Shown: positions 1 to 30,167 of the stretch, piece by piece
Numbering within the stretch: the first letter of the stretch is position 1
How the letters are laid out: the number at the start of each line of letters is the position of its first letter
Assembly: GCA_017434555.1 (NCBI GenBank)
Contig: JAFRFB010000045.1
Span: 1-49,507, forward strand
DNA length: 49,507 nucleotides
Direction of reading: 5' to 3'
From: Methanobrevibacter sp.
Lineage (GTDB): Archaea; Methanobacteriota; Methanobacteria; Methanobacteriales; Methanobacteriaceae
The notes under the pieces: model-generated
What the model was told of the DNA's origin: nothing
Databases searched by the model: none
What the model saw: only the letters and a program-made list of their open reading frames with translations
Position numbers and translations under genes: made by a program

Positions 1-2556
1 ATCCCAATTATATGAAACATATAATAAAGCAGTGTTAACAGTTCCATTAGCTAAATCAACTTCAAATTCGTCAGCTCTGTTAGTAGCACCACCAGCACTA
101 TAAGCAGTAGTGTTTAAAATAATAACATCACCAGTAATAGGAATTTCTAATAAAGATGGTTCAGCTCCAGGATACTCAAAGTCTTTACCTAAATAACCAT
201 TATATAATACAACAAAGGTATAATTAGCTTCATCAATTATAGTACCGTCCTCTAATGAAAGAATAACAGTATAATTAACTTTTTCATTGTCATTTCCATT
301 TACAGTTTGTGCAGTAACTGGTCTGATATTAGAATCAACTACAACAGTAACATTACTTTCACCGGTACGTAATGAATCAATAACAAAACTGTCTAATTCG
401 TCACCATCACCTAAAACATCAACAGTAACATTTTCAAGATTGGAAGCCTCATTTGTAACAGTTAAAGTTAATGTGTTTTCCACACCAGCATAAACAGTAC
501 CTGAATATTCAGGTTTTAAATTACTGCTTGCTGAAATTGAATCAGATTCAACAACGACCATTTGGTGTAAGCCTAAAATAGTTGAGCCGGTTGCTTCAAA
601 GTAAACGTTAATGATACCTGAATCATCCATATCCACATCAGTTATGAACATTTCTAGTGATGAGGAAGTTCCGCTCCAAACGTCACTATAGTTTGCATCG
701 TTGACCATTAAGTTACCTTCACCAGCTTGAGCACTTGCAGCAAATACATATAATGTAGCATTACCGTCAATCACATCGATGAAACTTGCGGTGAAAGAAG
801 ATTCTATATTTTTGTTATAATCTGTAGATAATAAATCAGATTCTTCTAAAATATATGCAGTTTTAAAAGTACTATCATCATTATCTGTTAAAATAATTAA
901 GTTTGTTGGGTAAACAGCAGCATTACCTGCAGTTTTATTAAATTCAAAGGTGTTTATACCATCAACAACCAAATCACTTACATCATAAACAACCAAACCA
1001 TAACCGTATTTACCTGAACTTCCTAAGTTAGACTGATCACGGTAGGAAGCGACTGGAGAGATAATTTGATTATTGAATGTGGTGTTCCAGGTGTTGAAGT
1101 CGTCATTTAGATTTTTATCCCAGTTATATGGAACATATAAAAGAGCAGTGTTAACAGTTCCATTCATTAAATCAGCATCATATTCGTCAGTTCTAGTGGT
1201 AGCACCACCAGCACTATATTTATCAGAGATTAAATAGAAATAGTCACCAGTGAAAGCTATTTCTCTTAAAAATGGTTCAGCTCCAGGATACTCAAAGTCT
1301 TTACCTAAATAACCATTATATAAAACTTTAAATGAAACATTTGTAGAATTTAAAACATTACCTTCATCATCTACAATATTTAAAGTATAATTTACAAGAG
1401 TGTTATTAGCTCCATTTACAGTAGTTTCATCAATAGGTCTAATAGTAGCATCGATTAATTTAATTTCACTAGATTCTCCAGCACCAATAGTTAAATCGCC
1501 TGAATCAATCACTTCATCATCACTCAATAATATAACACTACCATTAAAGTCTTGATTACCATTTTTAACATTAATTTTTAAGGTGTTTTCAACACCAGCA
1601 TATATTGAAGTGTCATATTTATATTCCGGAGTTATTGTAGCGGATATATAGTACTCTTCCGGAGTATATGCTTTTAATAATTGAATTACACTTTTATATG
1701 AAGAATAAGCGGATGCATTTGATGAAGTGTATGTGAAGTTTGTATCTTCTCCTAATTCAAAATTGTCAGTTACATCCCAAACATCATAGATATAATTACT
1801 TCCTTTTTCTTGAATAGGATCAGCTAATTCTTCCCCATTTAATTCATATAATCTTGCATCAGTAGTAGATAGAGAAATAGCTTCTAATGTGATCTCCTCA
1901 TAATCATCCTCGAAATCTTTTGTATTAAAGATTGTACTTAATGTTCCTTTTGTCCATGCTTGACCAATATTAAGCCAATAGGATATCTGATCATTATCTT
2001 CGTCATCATAAGCAAAAATTAAAGCAATAACTTTTATTCTTCCATCAAATTGATAATCATCCAATTTAGTATTATTTACTGAAATTGTAATTGAATCTCC
2101 AGCAGACAAGTCTTTTACATTATCTGTTATATCCACTAAAGTTTGATAGTCAGAATATTGTTTATTAGTAAAATCAGTTATATCATAAACAACCGGATCA
2201 TTTGCAGTATCATTAACGAATGTTAAATTCGCATATTCCAATACTTCAGTTGTATTGCCAGTTGTTAAAGAAATATTTGTTGTTAATCCATATGTAGCTT
2301 TTCCACTTCCTGAATAAGAATTAACAACTACATATGCAGAGTTTATATTGCTTACGTTTTCAGGAATTTCATAAACAAGCTCACCATCAGTTACGCCAGT
2401 AGCGAAAGGATTGACTGATGCAATTTCAATATCACCAGACACCACTCCCGTTTCAACTGAAGGTAAAGCAGAATCTTCAGCAAAAACAATTCCTGAAGAA
2501 ATCATTATTAAGAATACGAATATTGTAAAAAATAATAAATTATTCTTAAATTTCAT
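1..2556 (-). CDS. Large exported repeat protein, DUF3344-like (3' end outside window)
   Basis: Open reading frame of 852 codons that runs off the left edge, so the C-terminus is missing. It starts at the ATG at 2556 with a GGGGG ribosome-binding stretch 7-11 bases upstream. The N-terminus is a signal peptide: Lys-rich start, a hydrophobic core of about 18 residues, then a VFA-E cleavage-like site. The mature part is acidic and rich in Asn, Thr and Ser, with many N-x-S/T sequons, as in surface proteins of methanogens. It contains at least two copies of a roughly 370-residue module, each with a YNGYLGKDFEYPGAEP block and a TVNTALLY(V)xYNWD block. The layout resembles DUF3344 surface proteins; that family name is from memory and tentative. 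Role inferred: cell-surface or adhesin-like. It is transcribed divergently from the CoA ligase gene. Confidence 0.8.
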   Translation of the reverse strand, partial: MKFKNNLLFFTIFVFLIMISSGIVFAEDSALPSVETGVVSGDIEIASVNPFATGVTDGELVYEIPENVSNINSAYVVVNSYSGSGKATYGLTTNISLTTGNTTEVLEYANLTFVNDTANDPVVYDITDFTNKQYSDYQTLVDITDNVKDLSAGDSITISVNNTKLDDYQFDGRIKVIALIFAYDDEDNDQISYWLNIGQAWTKGTLSTIFNTKDFEDDYEEITLEAISLSTTDARLYELNGEELADPIQEKGSNYIYDVWDVTDNFELGEDTNFTYTSSNASAYSSYKSVIQLLKAYTPEEYYISATITPEYKYDTSIYAGVENTLKINVKNGNQDFNGSVILLSDDEVIDSGDLTIGAGESSEIKLIDATIRPIDETTVNGANNTLVNYTLNIVDDEGNVLNSTNVSFKVLYNGYLGKDFEYPGAEPFLREIAFTGDYFYLISDKYSAGGATTRTDEYDADLMNGTVNTALLYVPYNWDKNLNDDFNTWNTTFNNQIISPVASYRDQSNLGSSGKYGYGLVVYDVSDLVVDGINTFEFNKTAGNAAVYPTNLIILTDNDDSTFKTAYILEESDLLSTDYNKNIESSFTASFIDVIDGNATLYVFAASAQAGEGNLMVNDANYSDVWSGTSSSLEMFITDVDMDDSGIINVYFEATGSTILGLHQMVVVESDSISASSNLKPEYSGTVYAGVENTLTLTVTNEASNLENVTVDVLGDGDELDSFVIDSLRTGESNVTVVVDSNIRPVTAQTVNGNDNEKVNYTVILSLEDGTIIDEANYTFVVLYNGYLGKDFEYPGAEPSLLEIPITGDVIILNTTAYSAGGATNRADEFEVDLANGTVNTALLYVSYNWD
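158..1324 (-). repeat. Long in-frame duplication inside the DUF3344-like gene
   Basis: A block of about 49 bases beginning at 158 (starting ggttcagctccaggatactc) recurs almost unchanged beginning at 1274. The offset is 1116 bases, exactly 372 codons, so the copies are in frame. Flanking sequence is also similar, for example the runs encoding TVNTALLY at about 10-50 and about 1130-1170. The duplicated unit corresponds to one complete extracellular module. Confidence 0.75.
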
Positions 2557-2632
2557 TATTTACCCCCATTAATAATTAAACATACCTTTAAATCGGTATA
2601 ATATAAAATAAATAATTTGTAATATATAAATA

Positions 2633-2648
2633 TACTTAAAGTATTACT
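2633..2648 (-). promoter_or_regulatory. Adhesin upstream element, copy A
   Basis: Read on the minus strand the site is AGTAATACTTTAAGTA. It is followed directly by a TATA-like run (TATATTTATATATTA) and then the DUF3344-like gene 77 bases further on. A 15-of-16 match (AGTAATAATTTAAGTA) stands in the same place before the adhesin gene that starts at 19336. A partial second copy (AAAGTATTACT on the plus strand) lies at 2670-2680. The position just upstream of TATA suggests an extended BRE or activator site; that role is inferred. Confidence 0.5.
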
Positions 2649-2746
2649 TAATAAATAAAAAGAATATAAAAAGTATTACTATTGATTAAATTTAAAGATA
2701 GAAAAAACAAAATATAATAATATTAAATAAAAATGAGGCAAAATCC

Positions 2747-4048
2747 ATGATGTGGAATGAAGAAATAGAAACAATGTCAAGGCAAGACCTTGAAGAACTG
2801 CAATTAAAGAAACTTCAATCAACAGTAAAAAGAGCATTTGACAAAATACCTTATTACAACAAGAAATACAGTGAAGCTGAAGTTTTTCCAGAAGATATTG
2901 AAACTTTAAAAGATATTGAAAAGTTACCGTTCATTACTAAAGATGACCTGCGTGAAAGCTATCCCTTTGGACTGTTTGCAGTGGACATATCCGAAATAAA
3001 GGAATTGCACTCCTCCTCCGGAACCACTGGAAAACCAGTCGTTTCAGGTTACACCGAAAAGGATTTGGATACCTGGGCAGAAACAATCGCCCGTGGTTTA
3101 ACGATGATGGGAATCGGTAAAGATGATATCCTTCAAAATACACACGGATACGGTATGTTTACCGGAGGATTCGGTGTTCACTACGGTTCACACAAAGTCG
3201 GAGCAGCAATCATTCCTATTTCAACCGGACAAACCAGAAGACAGATTGAAATAATGCAGGACTTTGGAACTACAGGATTAATCTTTACGCCATCCTATGG
3301 AATTCACATTGGAGAAGTAGCACTGGAAGACGGAATTAATCCAAAAGATTTAGGAATTAAAGCTATCGGTTTTGGAGCGGAAATGTGGACTGAAGAAATC
3401 AGACAAAGAGTGGAAGAAATCTTCGGCGCAAAAGCATATAACATTTACGGATTGACCGAACTGACAGGTCCCGGTGTCGGTGTTGAATGTGAAGCACAAA
3501 ACGGCCTTCACATTGCAGAAGACATTTACTATCCTGAAATCATTGACCCAGATACTCAAGAAGTTTTAGGAGAAAACCAGAAAGGAGAATTAGTTTTAAC
3601 TAACCTTGAAAGAGAAGGAATGCCTGTAATCAGATTCAGAACAAAAGACCTTACAAAAATTACCTATGAAAAATGTGAATGTGGAAGAACACATGCAAGA
3701 ATGAGCAGAATTACCGGAAGATCAGACGATATGATTAAAGTTAAAGGAGTAGCTATTTTCCCATCACAAATTGAAAAAGCATTGCTTAGAGCAGGTGATG
3801 TAGAGCCTCATTATTTAATTATAGTTACAAGACCTGGAACTTTAGATGAAATTGAAGTTAAAGTTGAAGTTTCACAGGACATTTTCTTTGACGGAGTAAA
3901 AGAGATGGTATCTGTCCAAAAGAAAATCGCAAAATCCATTGAAAATGAAACAGGTATCAGGGTAAAGGTAACTCTGGTTGAACCTAAGACATTACCTAGA
4001 TTTGAAGGAAAGGCCAAAAGAGTTATTGATGAGAGGAATTTACATTAG
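2747..4048 (+). CDS. paaK: Phenylacetate-CoA ligase family protein (aryl-acid adenylation)
   Basis: A 433-residue member of the ANL adenylating superfamily, PaaK type, which activates an aryl acid (phenylacetate or indoleacetate) with ATP and then CoA. The AMP-binding P-loop SSSGTTGKP is at residues 89-97. A YGLTE signature, the RTKDLT segment and the hinge-like GRSDDMIKVKG follow. A late Lys (FEGKAKR) near the C-terminus fits the catalytic lysine. Length matches the family. An ATG three bases downstream is an equally possible start; GAGG at 2735-2738 serves both. The ACT-domain gene follows 12 bases later, almost certainly as an operon. In methanogens this pair commonly accompanies indolepyruvate oxidoreductase and is linked to reuse of exogenous aryl acids for aromatic amino acids. 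The exact substrate cannot be read from sequence. Confidence 0.9.
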   Translation: MMWNEEIETMSRQDLEELQLKKLQSTVKRAFDKIPYYNKKYSEAEVFPEDIETLKDIEKLPFITKDDLRESYPFGLFAVDISEIKELHSSSGTTGKPVVSGYTEKDLDTWAETIARGLTMMGIGKDDILQNTHGYGMFTGGFGVHYGSHKVGAAIIPISTGQTRRQIEIMQDFGTTGLIFTPSYGIHIGEVALEDGINPKDLGIKAIGFGAEMWTEEIRQRVEEIFGAKAYNIYGLTELTGPGVGVECEAQNGLHIAEDIYYPEIIDPDTQEVLGENQKGELVLTNLEREGMPVIRFRTKDLTKITYEKCECGRTHARMSRITGRSDDMIKVKGVAIFPSQIEKALLRAGDVEPHYLIIVTRPGTLDEIEVKVEVSQDIFFDGVKEMVSVQKKIAKSIENETGIRVKVTLVEPKTLPRFEGKAKRVIDERNLH

Positions 4049-4060
4049 GGGGATTAAGTT

Positions 4061-4492
4061 ATGAAAATCAAACAGCTATCAATATTTTTACAAAATAAGA
4101 TGGGCAGTTTAGCAAAACCTTTAGAGGTTTTAACAGTCGCTGATGTCAATATCAGGGCAATGTGTATGGCAGATACATCCGAATTCGGTATCTTAAGGCT
4201 GGTTGTCGATGACCCTGAAAAAGGAAAAGAGGCACTGGAACAGAATAATTTCCTAGTCAAGATGACTGAAATCATCGGTGTTGAAATGAATGATGCTCCT
4301 GGCGGTTTGACAAGTGTCTTAAACATAATTAAAGACAACAATATTGATTTAGAATATCTTTATGCATTTTCCCATGATAAATCAGAAAAAGCTATATTAT
4401 TACTTCATGCAGATGATATCGATAATCTAATAGACGTTTTAACAAAAAACAACATCACAATCGTCGAAAGCGAAGAAGTTTACAACCTGTAA
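4061..4492 (+). CDS. Tandem ACT-domain protein
   Basis: A 143-residue protein made of two ACT modules. The first (residues 1-67) begins MKIKQLSIFLQNKMGSLAKP, the typical beta strand plus ligand loop. The second (about 72-143) contains APGGLTSVLNIIKDNNI, the classic ACT turn. ACT domains bind amino acids and related ligands, so this is probably the sensor or regulatory partner of the aryl-CoA ligase just upstream. A GGGGGA ribosome binding site precedes the ATG. PaaK/ACT pairing is well known in archaea; the ligand here (an aromatic amino acid or aryl acid) is inferred from that context. Confidence 0.85.
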   Translation: MKIKQLSIFLQNKMGSLAKPLEVLTVADVNIRAMCMADTSEFGILRLVVDDPEKGKEALEQNNFLVKMTEIIGVEMNDAPGGLTSVLNIIKDNNIDLEYLYAFSHDKSEKAILLLHADDIDNLIDVLTKNNITIVESEEVYNL

Positions 4493-16894: not shown

Positions 16895-19336
16895 TTAGCT
16901 TATGGTAATCCAATTTGCAACGCTTAAATAATTATAAGATGAGGTGATAATGTATTTACCGGACATGAGATTTATATTCAATCGGGCTACACCGTTTAAA
17001 TCCGTTGTTCTAATGTAGAAAACACCATTAATATTGAATGTAACATTTTGACCTGCGTAGGGATTGCCTTCACCATCAAGAACTTTAGCTTCAAATTTAG
17101 ATCCGTCCCTATAATTCATATTTAAATCATTAGTTTTTAAAACAGAAAGTACCTTAATTTTATTTGATGTCATTAAGCCTTTGTATTGGGCGGTTATGAT
17201 ATAATCTCCAGGACCTAAATTAATATTGAGTTTTGCAATTCCTGATGCATTAGTTTGACGATTATAGAATACACCGTTAATGTTAAACGTGACGCTTTCA
17301 CCGGCACCGACAGGCTTTCCGTCATCTCCCAAAAGCCTGATATAATACTGGGAAGCGTTTCTATAATATTTGGTCAAATCATTGTTCATGTCCATGTTTG
17401 ATAGAACTGTAACAATGTTTGAATAAAACTCTCCTGAAGAAGGATTTTTGGCAGTAATGATATATCTTCCAGGATTTAGGTTTATATTCAGTTTGGCCGT
17501 ACCTTCATCATTGGTTTTTCGTGTATAAAATACTCCATTAATGTTAAATTCAACATCGCTGTTTTTTAAGATATTTCCATTGGAGTCTAAGAAAGTGGCA
17601 TAGTATTGTGTTGCATTTCTGAATGTTTTAGTAATGTTTTTTCCCAAAACAGTTGATTTAACAGTTACAGTTGCATTTACCTCTTCATCGTCATAATCAA
17701 CGAATACAGTATAGACTCCGCTGTTTAAATTGATTGCAATGCTTGACTGGCCTTTATCATTTGTTACTCTATCATAGCTTTGGCCGTTAATGATGATAGC
17801 CAAAGCATTATTAGCTAAAGGAAGATCATTTTCATCAGTTAAAGTTACAACAAATCTTTCAGGACCCATATAGTACTTTGTTAAGTCCGGAGCGTTTATC
17901 TTAACCTTTGAGGGTCCGATTATGAAAGTGACGGCATTTGCACTGGTCCGGTTATAGATATCATCACCTGAATAAATTGTCCTGACAGTGTATGTTCCAT
18001 TTTCCAAATCATATAATATTACACTGGCCATTCCATCTTTAACTGTTGAAGAGTAATTATTACCATTGACATCATAGATTATGCTTCCTGTTGCAGATTC
18101 AGGACTAATTTTTGTAGTCAAAATCACATTTCGGTTGTTTTTCTTATAGGTGGTTTTAACTTCAGGGATGAATTTTTCATCCACATCACCAACATTCAAT
18201 ATTGCCTCAATGACGGTACAGTCATTTGAAATTGCTTCACTTAAAATTCCGGATAGTCTGTAAATTCCATTTTTTAAATTGGCAGTATAGGTGTATCCTG
18301 AACTTTCATCCAAATATAATGTAGGATTATCCACCAGATTGTTTGTTTTGTCATAGACTTCAAGAGTTATTGTATTGTAGACATCTTTAGGATATGAATC
18401 CAGTTTAATCCTGTTTTTGTTGTCATCATAGACATTTCCAACCAATACCGTATCTCCGGAATTGACTGTCTGATTTAAGAATTCCAGATAAATTAAAGAA
18501 GCGATTGGAGTATCTCCACGATAGGAAATATCCCAGAGATAAGAAGAGGTCATTATATTATTTCTTAAGTATAGTGATCCGTCACGTCCATCCCAATCAT
18601 CAAAGTATTCTATGAAGTTCGTATTGCCCCTGCTTGATGTGAAATTGGAATTGATAACATTAATCTCATTATTTGCACAAATGGCTGAAGCGTATTGATT
18701 AGCCATATTATCGATAAAAATACAACTATCAACAGTAGTATTTGATTCATAAAGAGATGTTAATGCGCCTGAAGCCCAATTAGCACTGTTTTCTATGAAT
18801 TTATCATTATATAAATAGGCTTTTGAACTTTCCAAAAATATTGCACCATGATTTTCAGCACTGTTTTTAGTAAAAATTGAATTAGTAATGTCAATTGAGG
18901 TAAATGAATAGATTGCTCCGCCACCATAGGATGCATGGTTATTTGTAAATTCACAGCTGTCAATTTTTAAAGGATGATCACTGTAAATCGCCCCACCAAA
19001 ATTAGCGGCGTTTCCATTAAGGAATTTAATATTATTTAAAACAACATTATCTGCATCGATTTTAAAGATTCTGGATGCTTGTGATGCGTCAATGCTGTGA
19101 CCATTTCCATAAATGCTTATCTGCTTATTGATACTTATTTCACCGCTTCCAACATAATCAGTGGTTAAAAAGATGCTGTCACCATCATTAGCGCCGTTAA
19201 TTAAATTTCGTAGTTGATTAAAGTCCTGTGAAGCTAAAATTTCTCCTCCAGACTCAGCGGCATTGATATCTTCGTTTGCAGATACGCAGGCAATCGAAAC
19301 AAAAAACAGTAATAACAAAACAAATATTCTTTTCAT
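16895..19336 (-). CDS. Adhesin-like exported protein with beta-helix and Ig-like repeats
   Basis: An 813-residue protein. A cleavable signal peptide (residues 1-20, ending VSANE) is followed by a right-handed beta-helix/Pmp-like region of about residues 60-240 (repeats such as NNHASYGGGAIYS, TNSIFTKNSAENHGAIF). A linker with Ig-like folds comes next, then four C-terminal modules of about 80-90 residues built around NINGVFYxRxT followed by KLNINLxPGxYIITA. There is no C-terminal membrane helix or sortase-type signal. The last two modules closely match the end of the adhesin at 26922-30167. A GGGGG stretch is 7-11 bases before the ATG. Probably a cell-surface adhesin; ligand unknown. Confidence 0.85.
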   Translation of the reverse strand: MKRIFVLLLLFFVSIACVSANEDINAAESGGEILASQDFNQLRNLINGANDGDSIFLTTDYVGSGEISINKQISIYGNGHSIDASQASRIFKIDADNVVLNNIKFLNGNAANFGGAIYSDHPLKIDSCEFTNNHASYGGGAIYSFTSIDITNSIFTKNSAENHGAIFLESSKAYLYNDKFIENSANWASGALTSLYESNTTVDSCIFIDNMANQYASAICANNEINVINSNFTSSRGNTNFIEYFDDWDGRDGSLYLRNNIMTSSYLWDISYRGDTPIASLIYLEFLNQTVNSGDTVLVGNVYDDNKNRIKLDSYPKDVYNTITLEVYDKTNNLVDNPTLYLDESSGYTYTANLKNGIYRLSGILSEAISNDCTVIEAILNVGDVDEKFIPEVKTTYKKNNRNVILTTKISPESATGSIIYDVNGNNYSSTVKDGMASVILYDLENGTYTVRTIYSGDDIYNRTSANAVTFIIGPSKVKINAPDLTKYYMGPERFVVTLTDENDLPLANNALAIIINGQSYDRVTNDKGQSSIAINLNSGVYTVFVDYDDEEVNATVTVKSTVLGKNITKTFRNATQYYATFLDSNGNILKNSDVEFNINGVFYTRKTNDEGTAKLNINLNPGRYIITAKNPSSGEFYSNIVTVLSNMDMNNDLTKYYRNASQYYIRLLGDDGKPVGAGESVTFNINGVFYNRQTNASGIAKLNINLGPGDYIITAQYKGLMTSNKIKVLSVLKTNDLNMNYRDGSKFEAKVLDGEGNPYAGQNVTFNINGVFYIRTTDLNGVARLNINLMSGKYIITSSYNYLSVANWITIS

Positions 19337-19386: not shown

Positions 19387-19402
19387 TACTTAAATTATTA
19401 CT
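19387..19402 (-). promoter_or_regulatory. Adhesin upstream element, copy B
   Basis: On the minus strand AGTAATAATTTAAGTA, a 15-of-16 match to the element at 2633-2648. It is followed by a TATA-like run (CTATAAAAATATATTA) and the adhesin ATG 51 bases further on. It also directly abuts the divergent oxidoreductase ATG at 19403, so it could affect both genes. Confidence 0.5.
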
Positions 19403-26921: not shown

Positions 26922-29900
26922 ATGACAAAATTTTACAAAAAAATTATCAAAGTCATGTTAATAATAGCTATTTTATTAATATGCACAGGTTCTGTTTCGG
27001 CAGAAGGTAACTTTACTGCATTGCAAAATGAAATTGACAATAGCGGTAACGTTTTAGAAATAACTCAGGATTATACTTTTAACAAATCCACTGATGATAA
27101 TCTCGGTGGGGGAATTTCACTAAACAATAAAGAAAACTTTATAATCAACGGTAATGGTCATATTTTAGATGGGGCCAACCTAAGTTCAATTTTTTATATT
27201 AACACGGACAATATCGCAATCAATAATCTAACATTCATAAATGGAAGATCCATGTCAGGAGGAGCAATTAGCGCATCAGGTTATAATATAACATTAAACA
27301 ATGTAATCTTTATAAACAATCATGCAGACGTAAGAGGAGGGGCTGTTACATGTGGTGAAGACGTAACAATCAATAATGCTCAATTTATTGACAATACCGC
27401 TAGTGATGAAGGAAATTCTCTTGATGTTAGTTTTCATAGTATTTTAACATTAAATAATTGTACTTTTTCAAACACACAAGAGATTTTAAAATTCATGGTT
27501 TATGCAGATGATTCTACTTTATATGTTAATAATTGCATTTTTGCAAATACCACCTCCAAATATGGTACAGCTATATTTAGCAATAAGCGAGCATACATTA
27601 CAAACTCAACATTTATTAACTTATCTGCAAGTTTAACTGGTGGAGCGCTGTTATTTAAAAATTATGATGTTGTAGAAATTAGAAATTCCACTTTTATAAA
27701 TATCCATGCCCAAAATGATGGTGGAAGCATTTTTGCAGATACAAACCCTGCAGTAGTTAAAGATTCAAGTTTATCAATTTATAATTCAAAATTCATCAAT
27801 TCAAGTGCAAATTATGGTGGCGCAATCTGCGGACTTAATACAGAAATGCGTGTAGAAAACTCCACTTTCTTTAACAATACTGCAAACTATGGTGGAGGAG
27901 CAATTCATGTTTCTTCATCTGATTTAAGTATTTATGATACATCATTTATCCAAAATAATGCAATTGACGATGAAATGGGATCTTATGGCGGCGCAATATA
28001 TTACGATTATTATAAAGTATTATTTGTCAAAAACTCAACATTCATTAAAAATCATGCTGCAACTCATGGGGATGCAATATACATTTATCAGCCTTATGAT
28101 GCGGGAATATACAATTCAAAATTCAATGCCAATGGTGAAGCAATATATTCAGTTTATGATGACTATTACGGTGAAAAGGATAATGATTATGGAAATGATA
28201 CCGTGCATTTAAAACAGACAGATTACGAAACAATCGTTGTTGAAAATGGTTTGGAAACTAAAATAATTAACAATACTATAAATTATACGGATTTACCTGA
28301 AAAATTCGATGCACGTGATTACGGATGGGTGACACCAGTTAAAAATCAGGGTGAAATGGGAGCCTGCTGGGCTTTTGGAACAATATCTGCCTTAGAATCA
28401 GCATTGCTTAAATCAACAGGAATTGCGTATAATCTTTCTGAAAACAATCTTCAAAACACAATTTTAAGATATTCAAAATATGGTACTTCCACCCAGAGCG
28501 AAGGAGGGCATTTATATAATGCGATAAGATACTTTACCGGTTGGTTAGGAGGTTTTTTATCAGAATATGATGAATATGATGAATACGGTAAATTATCCCC
28601 ATTAATTAACACTAATGAAAACATACACATTCAAGATGTAATTATTGTTCCGGAATTCACTGATTTACTATATCAAAATGATATAAAAGAAGCAATAATT
28701 AATAGTGGTGCTGTTGCAGCTGTATTTGAAGCCCATACAGATAACTTTGATTACTACGATCCCTCAACAAGCACATATTACTGTCCATATATACTTAATA
28801 ATCAATATCATGTTATTACTATCGTAGGCTGGGACGATAATTTTCCAAAAGAAAACTTTTCTACAACCCCTGAAGGCAATGGAGCATGGATTTGTAAAAA
28901 CAGCTGGGGTACAGAGTGGGGAAAAGATGGATTTTTCTATATTTCATATTATGACAAAACTTTATTTAGAAGCGAATCAAGCATTGCTTTTAAAATCGGA
29001 AATACTGAAAACTATACAAAAAATTACCAGACAGAAGTTGGCGGAACCACAGTTCAGGAACAATTCGAATATGATAAATATTATAATAGATATACCTCAT
29101 TGGCTGATGATTTAATAGCTGGTGTTGGAACATACATCAATGAAATCGGACTGAATTATACAATTGACGTTTTCGTGAATGACATTTTGAAATTAACTCA
29201 AAATGAAACTTCCAAATTTATCGGATTCACCACAATTAAACTTAATGAATATATTCCGATTAAAACAGGAGATAATTTCACAGTAATAATTAACGGCAAC
29301 CCTGTCCCTACAGTCACAAATTCCAGGCTCGTATATGAGGCAAACAATTCATTCTTATATTCCAACGGTGAATGGAAGGATTTATACTTGGATAAAACAA
29401 CAGCTGTTTTAAAAGTCTATACTGTGGAGTTTCCAATAAAAACCAATGATTTGGTAAAAATATATAAAAATGAATCCCAGTTCGAGGCCAATGTTGGTGT
29501 AGAAAATGCTACCGTTAATTTCAAGATAAATGGAGTCAGCTATAACAGAACCACCAATAAAAACGGAACGGCCAAATTAAACATTAACTTAAATCCGGGA
29601 AATTACACAATTACCACAACATTCAACAATCTAAGCGTTGAAAACAGCGTATGTGTCATATCACCAATCGAGTCAAATGATCTGGTTAAATACTACAGGA
29701 ACGCTTCACAATATGTTGTAAGAATTTTAGGACCTGACGGCAATTATGTCGGTGCAGGTGAAAACGTGACATTCAACGTTAACGGAGTGCTCTACACAAG
29801 ACAAACCAATGCGTCCGGCCATGCCAAATTAAACATTAATTTAGAACCTGGCGAATATATAATCACAGCCGATTACAAAGGATGTATGCAGTCCAATAAG

Positions 29901-30167
29901 ATTACAGTATTGTCCGTATTGAATGCAAGCGACATTACAATGAAATATCTTGACGGAACACAGTTTAAAGCAAGTTTGGTTGATGGTCAAGGCAATATCT
30001 ATCCTAACCAGTATATCCAGTTCAATATCAATGGTATGTTGTATTATAGACTAACCGACAGTACAGGTACAGCAAAACTAAACATCAGATTAATGCCTGG
30101 CGAATACATCATAACATCAAGTTATAACGGACAGAATATTGCAAATACAATAAAAATAACATCATAG
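26922..30167 (+). CDS. Adhesin-like protein with internal papain-like (C1A) protease
   Basis: A 1081-residue exported protein. The signal peptide ends around residue 27 (SVSAEG). Residues 40-410 form a Pmp-like beta-helix (repeated NSTFxN and GGAI turns). Residues 456-690 are a C1A peptidase: PEKFDARDYGWVTPVKNQG, catalytic C482 in GACWAFG, H630 in NQYHVITIVGWDD and N660 in CKNSWGTEWG, so the catalytic triad and oxyanion Gln are intact. A beta-rich region (about 705-845) fits the lectin-like domain often found after such proteases. Three Ig-like modules finish the protein and match those of the 16895-19336 adhesin. Probably a secreted or wall-bound surface protease; its target is unknown. Confidence 0.88.
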   Translation: MTKFYKKIIKVMLIIAILLICTGSVSAEGNFTALQNEIDNSGNVLEITQDYTFNKSTDDNLGGGISLNNKENFIINGNGHILDGANLSSIFYINTDNIAINNLTFINGRSMSGGAISASGYNITLNNVIFINNHADVRGGAVTCGEDVTINNAQFIDNTASDEGNSLDVSFHSILTLNNCTFSNTQEILKFMVYADDSTLYVNNCIFANTTSKYGTAIFSNKRAYITNSTFINLSASLTGGALLFKNYDVVEIRNSTFINIHAQNDGGSIFADTNPAVVKDSSLSIYNSKFINSSANYGGAICGLNTEMRVENSTFFNNTANYGGGAIHVSSSDLSIYDTSFIQNNAIDDEMGSYGGAIYYDYYKVLFVKNSTFIKNHAATHGDAIYIYQPYDAGIYNSKFNANGEAIYSVYDDYYGEKDNDYGNDTVHLKQTDYETIVVENGLETKIINNTINYTDLPEKFDARDYGWVTPVKNQGEMGACWAFGTISALESALLKSTGIAYNLSENNLQNTILRYSKYGTSTQSEGGHLYNAIRYFTGWLGGFLSEYDEYDEYGKLSPLINTNENIHIQDVIIVPEFTDLLYQNDIKEAIINSGAVAAVFEAHTDNFDYYDPSTSTYYCPYILNNQYHVITIVGWDDNFPKENFSTTPEGNGAWICKNSWGTEWGKDGFFYISYYDKTLFRSESSIAFKIGNTENYTKNYQTEVGGTTVQEQFEYDKYYNRYTSLADDLIAGVGTYINEIGLNYTIDVFVNDILKLTQNETSKFIGFTTIKLNEYIPIKTGDNFTVIINGNPVPTVTNSRLVYEANNSFLYSNGEWKDLYLDKTTAVLKVYTVEFPIKTNDLVKIYKNESQFEANVGVENATVNFKINGVSYNRTTNKNGTAKLNINLNPGNYTITTTFNNLSVENSVCVISPIESNDLVKYYRNASQYVVRILGPDGNYVGAGENVTFNVNGVLYTRQTNASGHAKLNINLEPGEYIITADYKGCMQSNKITVLSVLNASDITMKYLDGTQFKASLVDGQGNIYPNQYIQFNINGMLYYRLTDSTGTAKLNIRLMPGEYIITSSYNGQNIANTIKITS

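Follow-up and report, generated by a model that had tools for sequence, protein, structure and literature searches.

A paired 9-bp palindrome upstream of a DUF3344 surface protein gene is a candidate nickel-limitation operator in Methanobrevibacter

Main

The intergenic region at positions 2557–2746 of the window (the whole 49,507-nucleotide stretch of Methanobrevibacter DNA analysed here) holds a candidate nickel-limitation operator, a reading that we consider probable. Its unit is a 9-bp palindrome, AGTAWTACT, which occurs in pairs; the 16-bp element reported in the initial annotation covers the proximal half of the pair in front of gene 1. The pair, its spacing, its spread across the order and its position before nickel/cobalt, Hmd, DUF3344 and CobN genes were computed, whereas the repressor part is inferred. 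Nickel is proposed as the signal because of the target gene set together with published data on nickel limitation.

Gut methanogens need nickel for methyl-coenzyme M reductase and for their [NiFe] hydrogenases. To our knowledge, how these organisms sense and gather the metal is poorly known. The paired box provides an order-wide list of candidate nickel-acquisition genes, a first functional context for DUF3344 and surface CobN-like proteins, and a reason why hmd, HmdC and a nicotianamine synthase (NAS)-like gene would move together. If the operator reading is true, the surface protein encoded by gene 1 is thereby tied to nickel supply.

A paired box upstream of gene 1

The features of the gene 1 locus are as follows.

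1–2556, minus strand: gene 1, truncated by the contig end, for a secreted DUF3344-domain protein (PF11824)
2623–2630, minus strand: TTTATATA, a TATA-like run identified by eye, 9 bp past the proximal box
2640–2648, minus strand: proximal box, AGTAATACT, inside the reported 16-mer (2633–2648)
2672–2680, minus strand: distal box, AGTAATACT, overlooked in the initial annotation; the proximal box is 32 bp away
2747–4048, plus strand: AMP-binding ligase, phenylacetate-CoA-ligase-like, divergent from gene 1 with a common intergenic region

Positions 1–135 of the window are the reverse complement of positions 1–135 of another contig of this genome, C81, in an exact 135-bp overlap, and gene 1 likely continues there, although the join is not certain because DUF3344 domains are repeats. 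C81 carries, in order, the rest of the DUF3344 gene, boxes, a DUF3344 gene, boxes and CobN. One relative (G009) has the same succession of ligase, boxes, DUF3344, boxes and CobN, as does a second (G014) with more DUF3344 copies; in a third (G034) DUF3344 and CobN are arranged divergently around a region with four boxes. In the available published text, DUF3344 figures as a fibrillar-adhesin cluster whose function is ambiguous (PMC9210967), and structure prediction of the domain from two window copies gave a mean pLDDT of 32. Its gene company leads us to guess at a role in metal capture.

Spacing and enrichment of the boxes

The genome scanned comprises 3.15 Mb in 146 contigs and contains 26 exact matches to AGTAATACTTTWW, mostly intergenic, often paired at 32 bp, and lying before genes for Hmd, CbiM and ABC transporters. 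With up to one mismatch allowed there is no excess (166 matches, the reversed control giving 164). In a sample of 424,824 bases, some stretches of which were picked around motif matches, pairs of AGTAATAC favour 32 bp, a preference that permuted motifs do not show; the same sample holds 14 box pairs, against 0 in 20 order-3 Markov resamples. The dominant spacing, in a table that mixes pair-selected with other loci, is 31–33 bp start-to-start, with lesser peaks at 9, 18–19, 40–43, 53 and 72–74 bp. Loci chosen by protein gave spacings of 31–33, 9 and 40–41 bp in the hmd set, and 32 bp plus several others in the DUF3344 set. Boxes 31–33 bp apart both lie on one helix face, and the pattern suggests that they are bound cooperatively. 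Half-sites of the paired box occur in all orientations.

In the promoters of heavy-metal P-type ATPase genes, the TATA-like run lies between the boxes, and in most cases 14 bp separate the second box from the start. This placement fits repression and suggests that the boxes mediate it. At gene 1 the TATA-like run lies shortly after the proximal box, a position that does not decide for or against repression.

That proximity is also what would be expected if the boxes were AT-rich core-promoter sequence or an accident. We regard this explanation as the least credible of those considered: pairs are confined to nine regions of the genome and absent from the Markov resamples, the reversed control is near zero, and the distance from box to gene start differs between target families. 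Nor do pairs occur equally before housekeeping genes, being found at 11 of 388 sampled genes, nearly all of which belong to the metal set or are divergent from it.

The similarity to gene 2 appears to be chance

The initial annotation had compared gene 1 with an adhesin gene elsewhere in the window.

16895–19336, minus strand: gene 2, for an adhesin-like protein whose domains are Big_3_5/Big_1; in our judgement not a target
19387–19402, minus strand: second 16-mer, a single degenerate box, AGTAATAAT, with one mismatch and no partner

A scan of the window bears out the match at 15 of 16 positions between AGTAATACTTTAAGTA (2633–2648, minus strand) and AGTAATAATTTAAGTA (19387–19402, minus strand), and sequence inspection places a TATA-like run next to both 16-mers on the downstream side, as described. 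With up to three mismatches, the 16-mer has nine matches in the window where 3.4 are expected. The window is AT-rich, and 18 pairs among its 31 upstream regions have a 16-mer in common at 15 or more positions, and Markov resamples of the same regions yield 7.8 such pairs on average (range 3–18). Because of these counts 16-mer similarity alone means little, and a 15/16 match between two promoters of this window is what chance leads one to expect. Genome-wide there are 48 matches at up to two mismatches against 88 for the reversed control; the 16-mer as such is therefore not enriched. A genome scan had been proposed to look for clustering before exported repeat proteins, which the matches to the 16-mer do not display, and many of the 30 loci inspected lie inside genes; it is the box that clusters, and it does so in front of nickel genes. 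We rejected 16 bp as the functional unit: in the hmd set only AGTAWTACT is constrained and its flanks are merely AT-rich, in a check whose inner seven positions were fixed by the search pattern itself.

The second proposed hallmark, a GGGGG leader, does precede both ATGs; its association with signal-like genes is a weak trend, and it does not mark adhesins. Of the 364 genes covered by the sampled stretches, 7 have the leader, one of them being the gene at 4061, whose product is not secreted; it is found at 3 of 38 signal-like genes and 4 of 326 others (Fisher p 0.027). The gene at 26922, cited as lacking both features, indeed has neither an upstream 16-mer nor GGGGG; it spans 26922–30167 and has no box upstream, and its product is a surface protein that combines Ig-like repeats with a C1 peptidase domain of the papain family.

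The element is not conserved before the two gene 2 orthologues examined. The orthologue in G014 (65% identical) begins 2 bp after another open reading frame (ORF), and the aligned promoter in G022 (81%, with an in-frame stop) retains the TATA part and lacks the first AGTA. Gene 2 does not belong to the box-bearing set, and the resemblance of its promoter to that of gene 1 seems to be chance. A regulator of an adhesin subset acting at 2633 and 19387 would account for the 15/16 match and the similar leaders. We nevertheless rejected it as very improbable, because such matches arise by chance, the box at gene 2 stands unpaired and is not kept by its two examined orthologues, other Ig-repeat adhesins lack a pair, and most box targets are metal genes. 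What survives of the proposed common regulator is a real shared element before gene 1 and a specific gene set that includes some surface proteins; what unites its members is the acquisition of nickel or cobalt and a nickel-sparing metabolism, not an adhesin role, and gene 2 is excluded from it. Nothing in the results points to the phase- or host-dependent expression that had been suggested.

Genes behind the paired box

The nine regions of this genome that contain a pair hold the following genes.

Heavy-metal P-type ATPase and aldo/keto reductase
Long leader before a gene that, from its N-terminus, we take to be HisA-like
DUF3344 (gene 1) and divergent ligase, in the window
Second DUF3344 gene
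CobN
Hmd and HmdC
CbiM
NikA-like SBP (SBP_bac_5; best NCBIfam match nikA, below cut-off) and 4Fe-4S protein
GNAT and an ABC ATPase matching the OppD and NikD models, both below cut-offs

The only surface proteins behind pairs in this genome are those of the two DUF3344 genes and CobN (three of the nine regions), and none of the other Ig-repeat adhesins listed for the genome is preceded by a pair in these regions. The sample includes 12 large signal-like proteins, of which four have a pair, and two of these four are metal transporters. Forty stretches from relatives, which were picked for holding pairs and so list targets and give no measure of enrichment, yield these families again and, in addition, a nicotianamine synthase/CntL-like enzyme.

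Loci chosen by protein provide a fairer test than those selected for pairs, with genes taken from mechanical ORF calls whose starts may be off. A box lies within 350 bp upstream of hmd in 25 of 28 loci, 16 of the 28 having a pair and 3 no box (a further 3 of the 31 loci, without upstream sequence, were left out); as a control, 100,604 bases downstream of hmd starts contain one box. At least one box accompanies DUF3344 in 16 of 17 loci, the exception being L304; a further 13 of the 30 loci, with a start beyond the locus, were not counted. An exact pair at 28–35 bp is present in 5 of the 17, and boxes stand at other spacings elsewhere.

In four relatives' loci (L202:2873-3694, L175, L191 and L365) the nicotianamine synthase/CntL-like gene stands next to a GNAT gene with paired boxes upstream. 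These loci suggest a nickel-controlled metallophore in these archaea.

Distribution of the paired box

Searches with AGTAWTAC-N22-26-AGTAWTAC found the paired box in all 60 sampled Methanobrevibacter genomes, with a nearly nil reversed control; across the order, 103 of the 113 genomes searched have it, and that control is zero or near zero in most of them. Named relatives of Hmd at 31 of 31 loci agree with Methanobrevibacter as the genus. DUF3344 is present in 48 of the 60 Methanobrevibacter genomes. The box is common in the family of the window; of two other families, one (f2) has it in none of 4 genomes and the other (f3) in 4 of 8, with one match each. A wider-spacing pattern matched 14 of 21 outlying genomes, the reversed control coming close behind in several. 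Box pairs are rare in one outlying genus (g18), and its inspected matches have the 31–33-bp spacing and precede an NAS-like/GNAT pair, CbiM and a ChlI-like AAA protein.

A putative nickel-responsive repressor

We propose that, when nickel is plentiful, a nickel-loaded repressor, most likely NikR, would sit on the boxes and block the promoter. When nickel is low the repressor would leave, and importers, the nicotianamine-type metallophore enzyme and the nickel-free hydrogenase Hmd would be made. The surface DUF3344 and CobN proteins would be made as well, and would help to capture metal or metal tetrapyrroles. Gene 1 would then encode a nickel-regulated surface protein.

Available portions of the literature provide the physiological precedent. 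Transcription of hmd is nickel-regulated (PMC3087415), and Hmd, HcgG, CobN1, NikR1 and transporters go up in Methanothermobacter marburgensis under nickel limitation (PMC12350162). The box targets resemble that response in comprising Hmd, an Hmd cofactor protein, CobN and transporters; by contrast, the accessible text of PMC12350162 describes neither an operator nor a surface DUF3344 protein.

The boxes might instead answer another signal that overlaps with nickel genes, such as cobalt, zinc, general metal stress or hydrogen supply. CbiM, CobN and NAS-like proteins may serve cobalt or other metals, and for these targets cobalt could equally be the signal; the P-type ATPase is of the heavy-metal class. 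Against this, Hmd and HmdC are tied specifically to nickel limitation in the available published accounts (PMC12350162, PMC3087415), and we consider another signal unlikely. Two targets count against the nickel reading itself: the heavy-metal P-type ATPase, if an exporter, is not expected to go up at low nickel, and the HisA-like gene behind the leader has no known nickel link.

NikR is the best candidate for the protein that binds the boxes, with the case for it about evenly balanced. Of the 113 genomes from the order, 110 have NikR_C, and NikR is single-copy in the family of the window and present in two to three copies in g18. The genome of the window encodes one NikR (RHH_1 plus NikR_C), which scores above the cut-off of the NCBIfam nickel responsive regulator model, and CbiM, NikA/NikD-like proteins, Hmd and HmdC among the box genes are targets of the NikR-regulon type.

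Comparison with known operators, from the parts of the papers open to us, is mixed. The delta-proteobacterial NikR operator, GTGTTAC-N13/14-GTAACAC (PMC545781), has half-sites of a similar form, GTnnnAC, and GTATTAC is one half of one predicted D. desulfuricans NikR site, that of hydAB (PMC545781). That regulon also includes a nickel ECF transporter and a nickel-independent hydrogenase (PMC545781). In contrast, half-sites here are about 23–24 bp apart in all orientations rather than 13–14 bp apart, and the targets include Hmd, DUF3344, CobN and NAS-like genes. The E. coli operator, GTATGA-N16-TCATAC (PMC7055735), precedes nickel importer genes and likewise has both of its half-sites on the same face of the helix, but differs in sequence (GTATGA against GTATTAC) and spans two turns where the paired box spans three. 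Known NikR sites have inverted half-sites 13–16 bp apart, and the boxes are 31–33 bp apart start-to-start; we did not accept NikR as a proven binder, because this spacing differs from known sites.

The same nickel (or nickel/cobalt) operator might be bound by a protein other than NikR, for example a small dimeric regulator that recognizes a 9-bp palindrome every three helical turns. Box spacings in the hmd, DUF3344 and pooled sets show no peak at the 20–22 bp expected for NikR-type half-sites, no exact box precedes nikR in 31 loci, and the NikR recognition strand is the same in g18 despite the rarity of pairs there, all of which favours such a factor. Yet this analysis found none, NikR occurs almost throughout the family as a single copy, and the half-site is similar to those of predicted NikR sites; we therefore view a different binder as a minority possibility. 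We know of no alternative factor that binds such a box.

Sites for NikR have been predicted at nickel transport genes in eight methanogens (Rodionov 2006, as cited in the available text of PMC10617489), and the box system shares with them predicted NikR control of nickel transport genes; part of it may already be known because of that prediction. Our literature search, mostly outside subscription papers, returned no description of the AGTAWTACT paired box in the text it covered, and among the matches listed for GTATTAC with nickel only PMC545781 concerned NikR sites. We tentatively advance, at slightly less than even confidence, a fuller proposal: in Methanobacteriales, an operator in which 9-bp palindromes stand three turns apart, and to which either NikR, in a new geometry, or another metalloregulator would bind, would place surface DUF3344, CobN and a nicotianamine-type metallophore under nickel control, as a dedicated nickel-scavenging surface of gut methanogens so far concealed among their 'adhesin-like proteins'.

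Upstream of nikR in some outlying genomes (L242, L247, L244-L253) there is a AACAATATTGTT-like palindrome or a similar run, and the palindrome could be a control site of nikR.

Further box-associated loci

A second CbiM gene in the genome of the window (L100:10775-11073, G000:C77) is divergent from a gene for a secreted FmdE-domain protein (PF02663), and the intergenic region has four boxes at spacings of 58 and 53 bp, not 32 bp.

In the leader ahead of the HisA-like gene (L099:2378-3053, G000:C15:32378-33053) and in four others like it (L173, L183, L198 and L205), the box pair is followed by a conserved TATA-like run. These five leaders extend for 500–650 bp without an ORF of 60 codons. A search of the L099, L173 and L183 leaders against Rfam gave no match at the gathering threshold. 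Alignment of all five reveals a second conserved AT-rich, promoter-like block further down, and a box-controlled small RNA may be made from the long leader.
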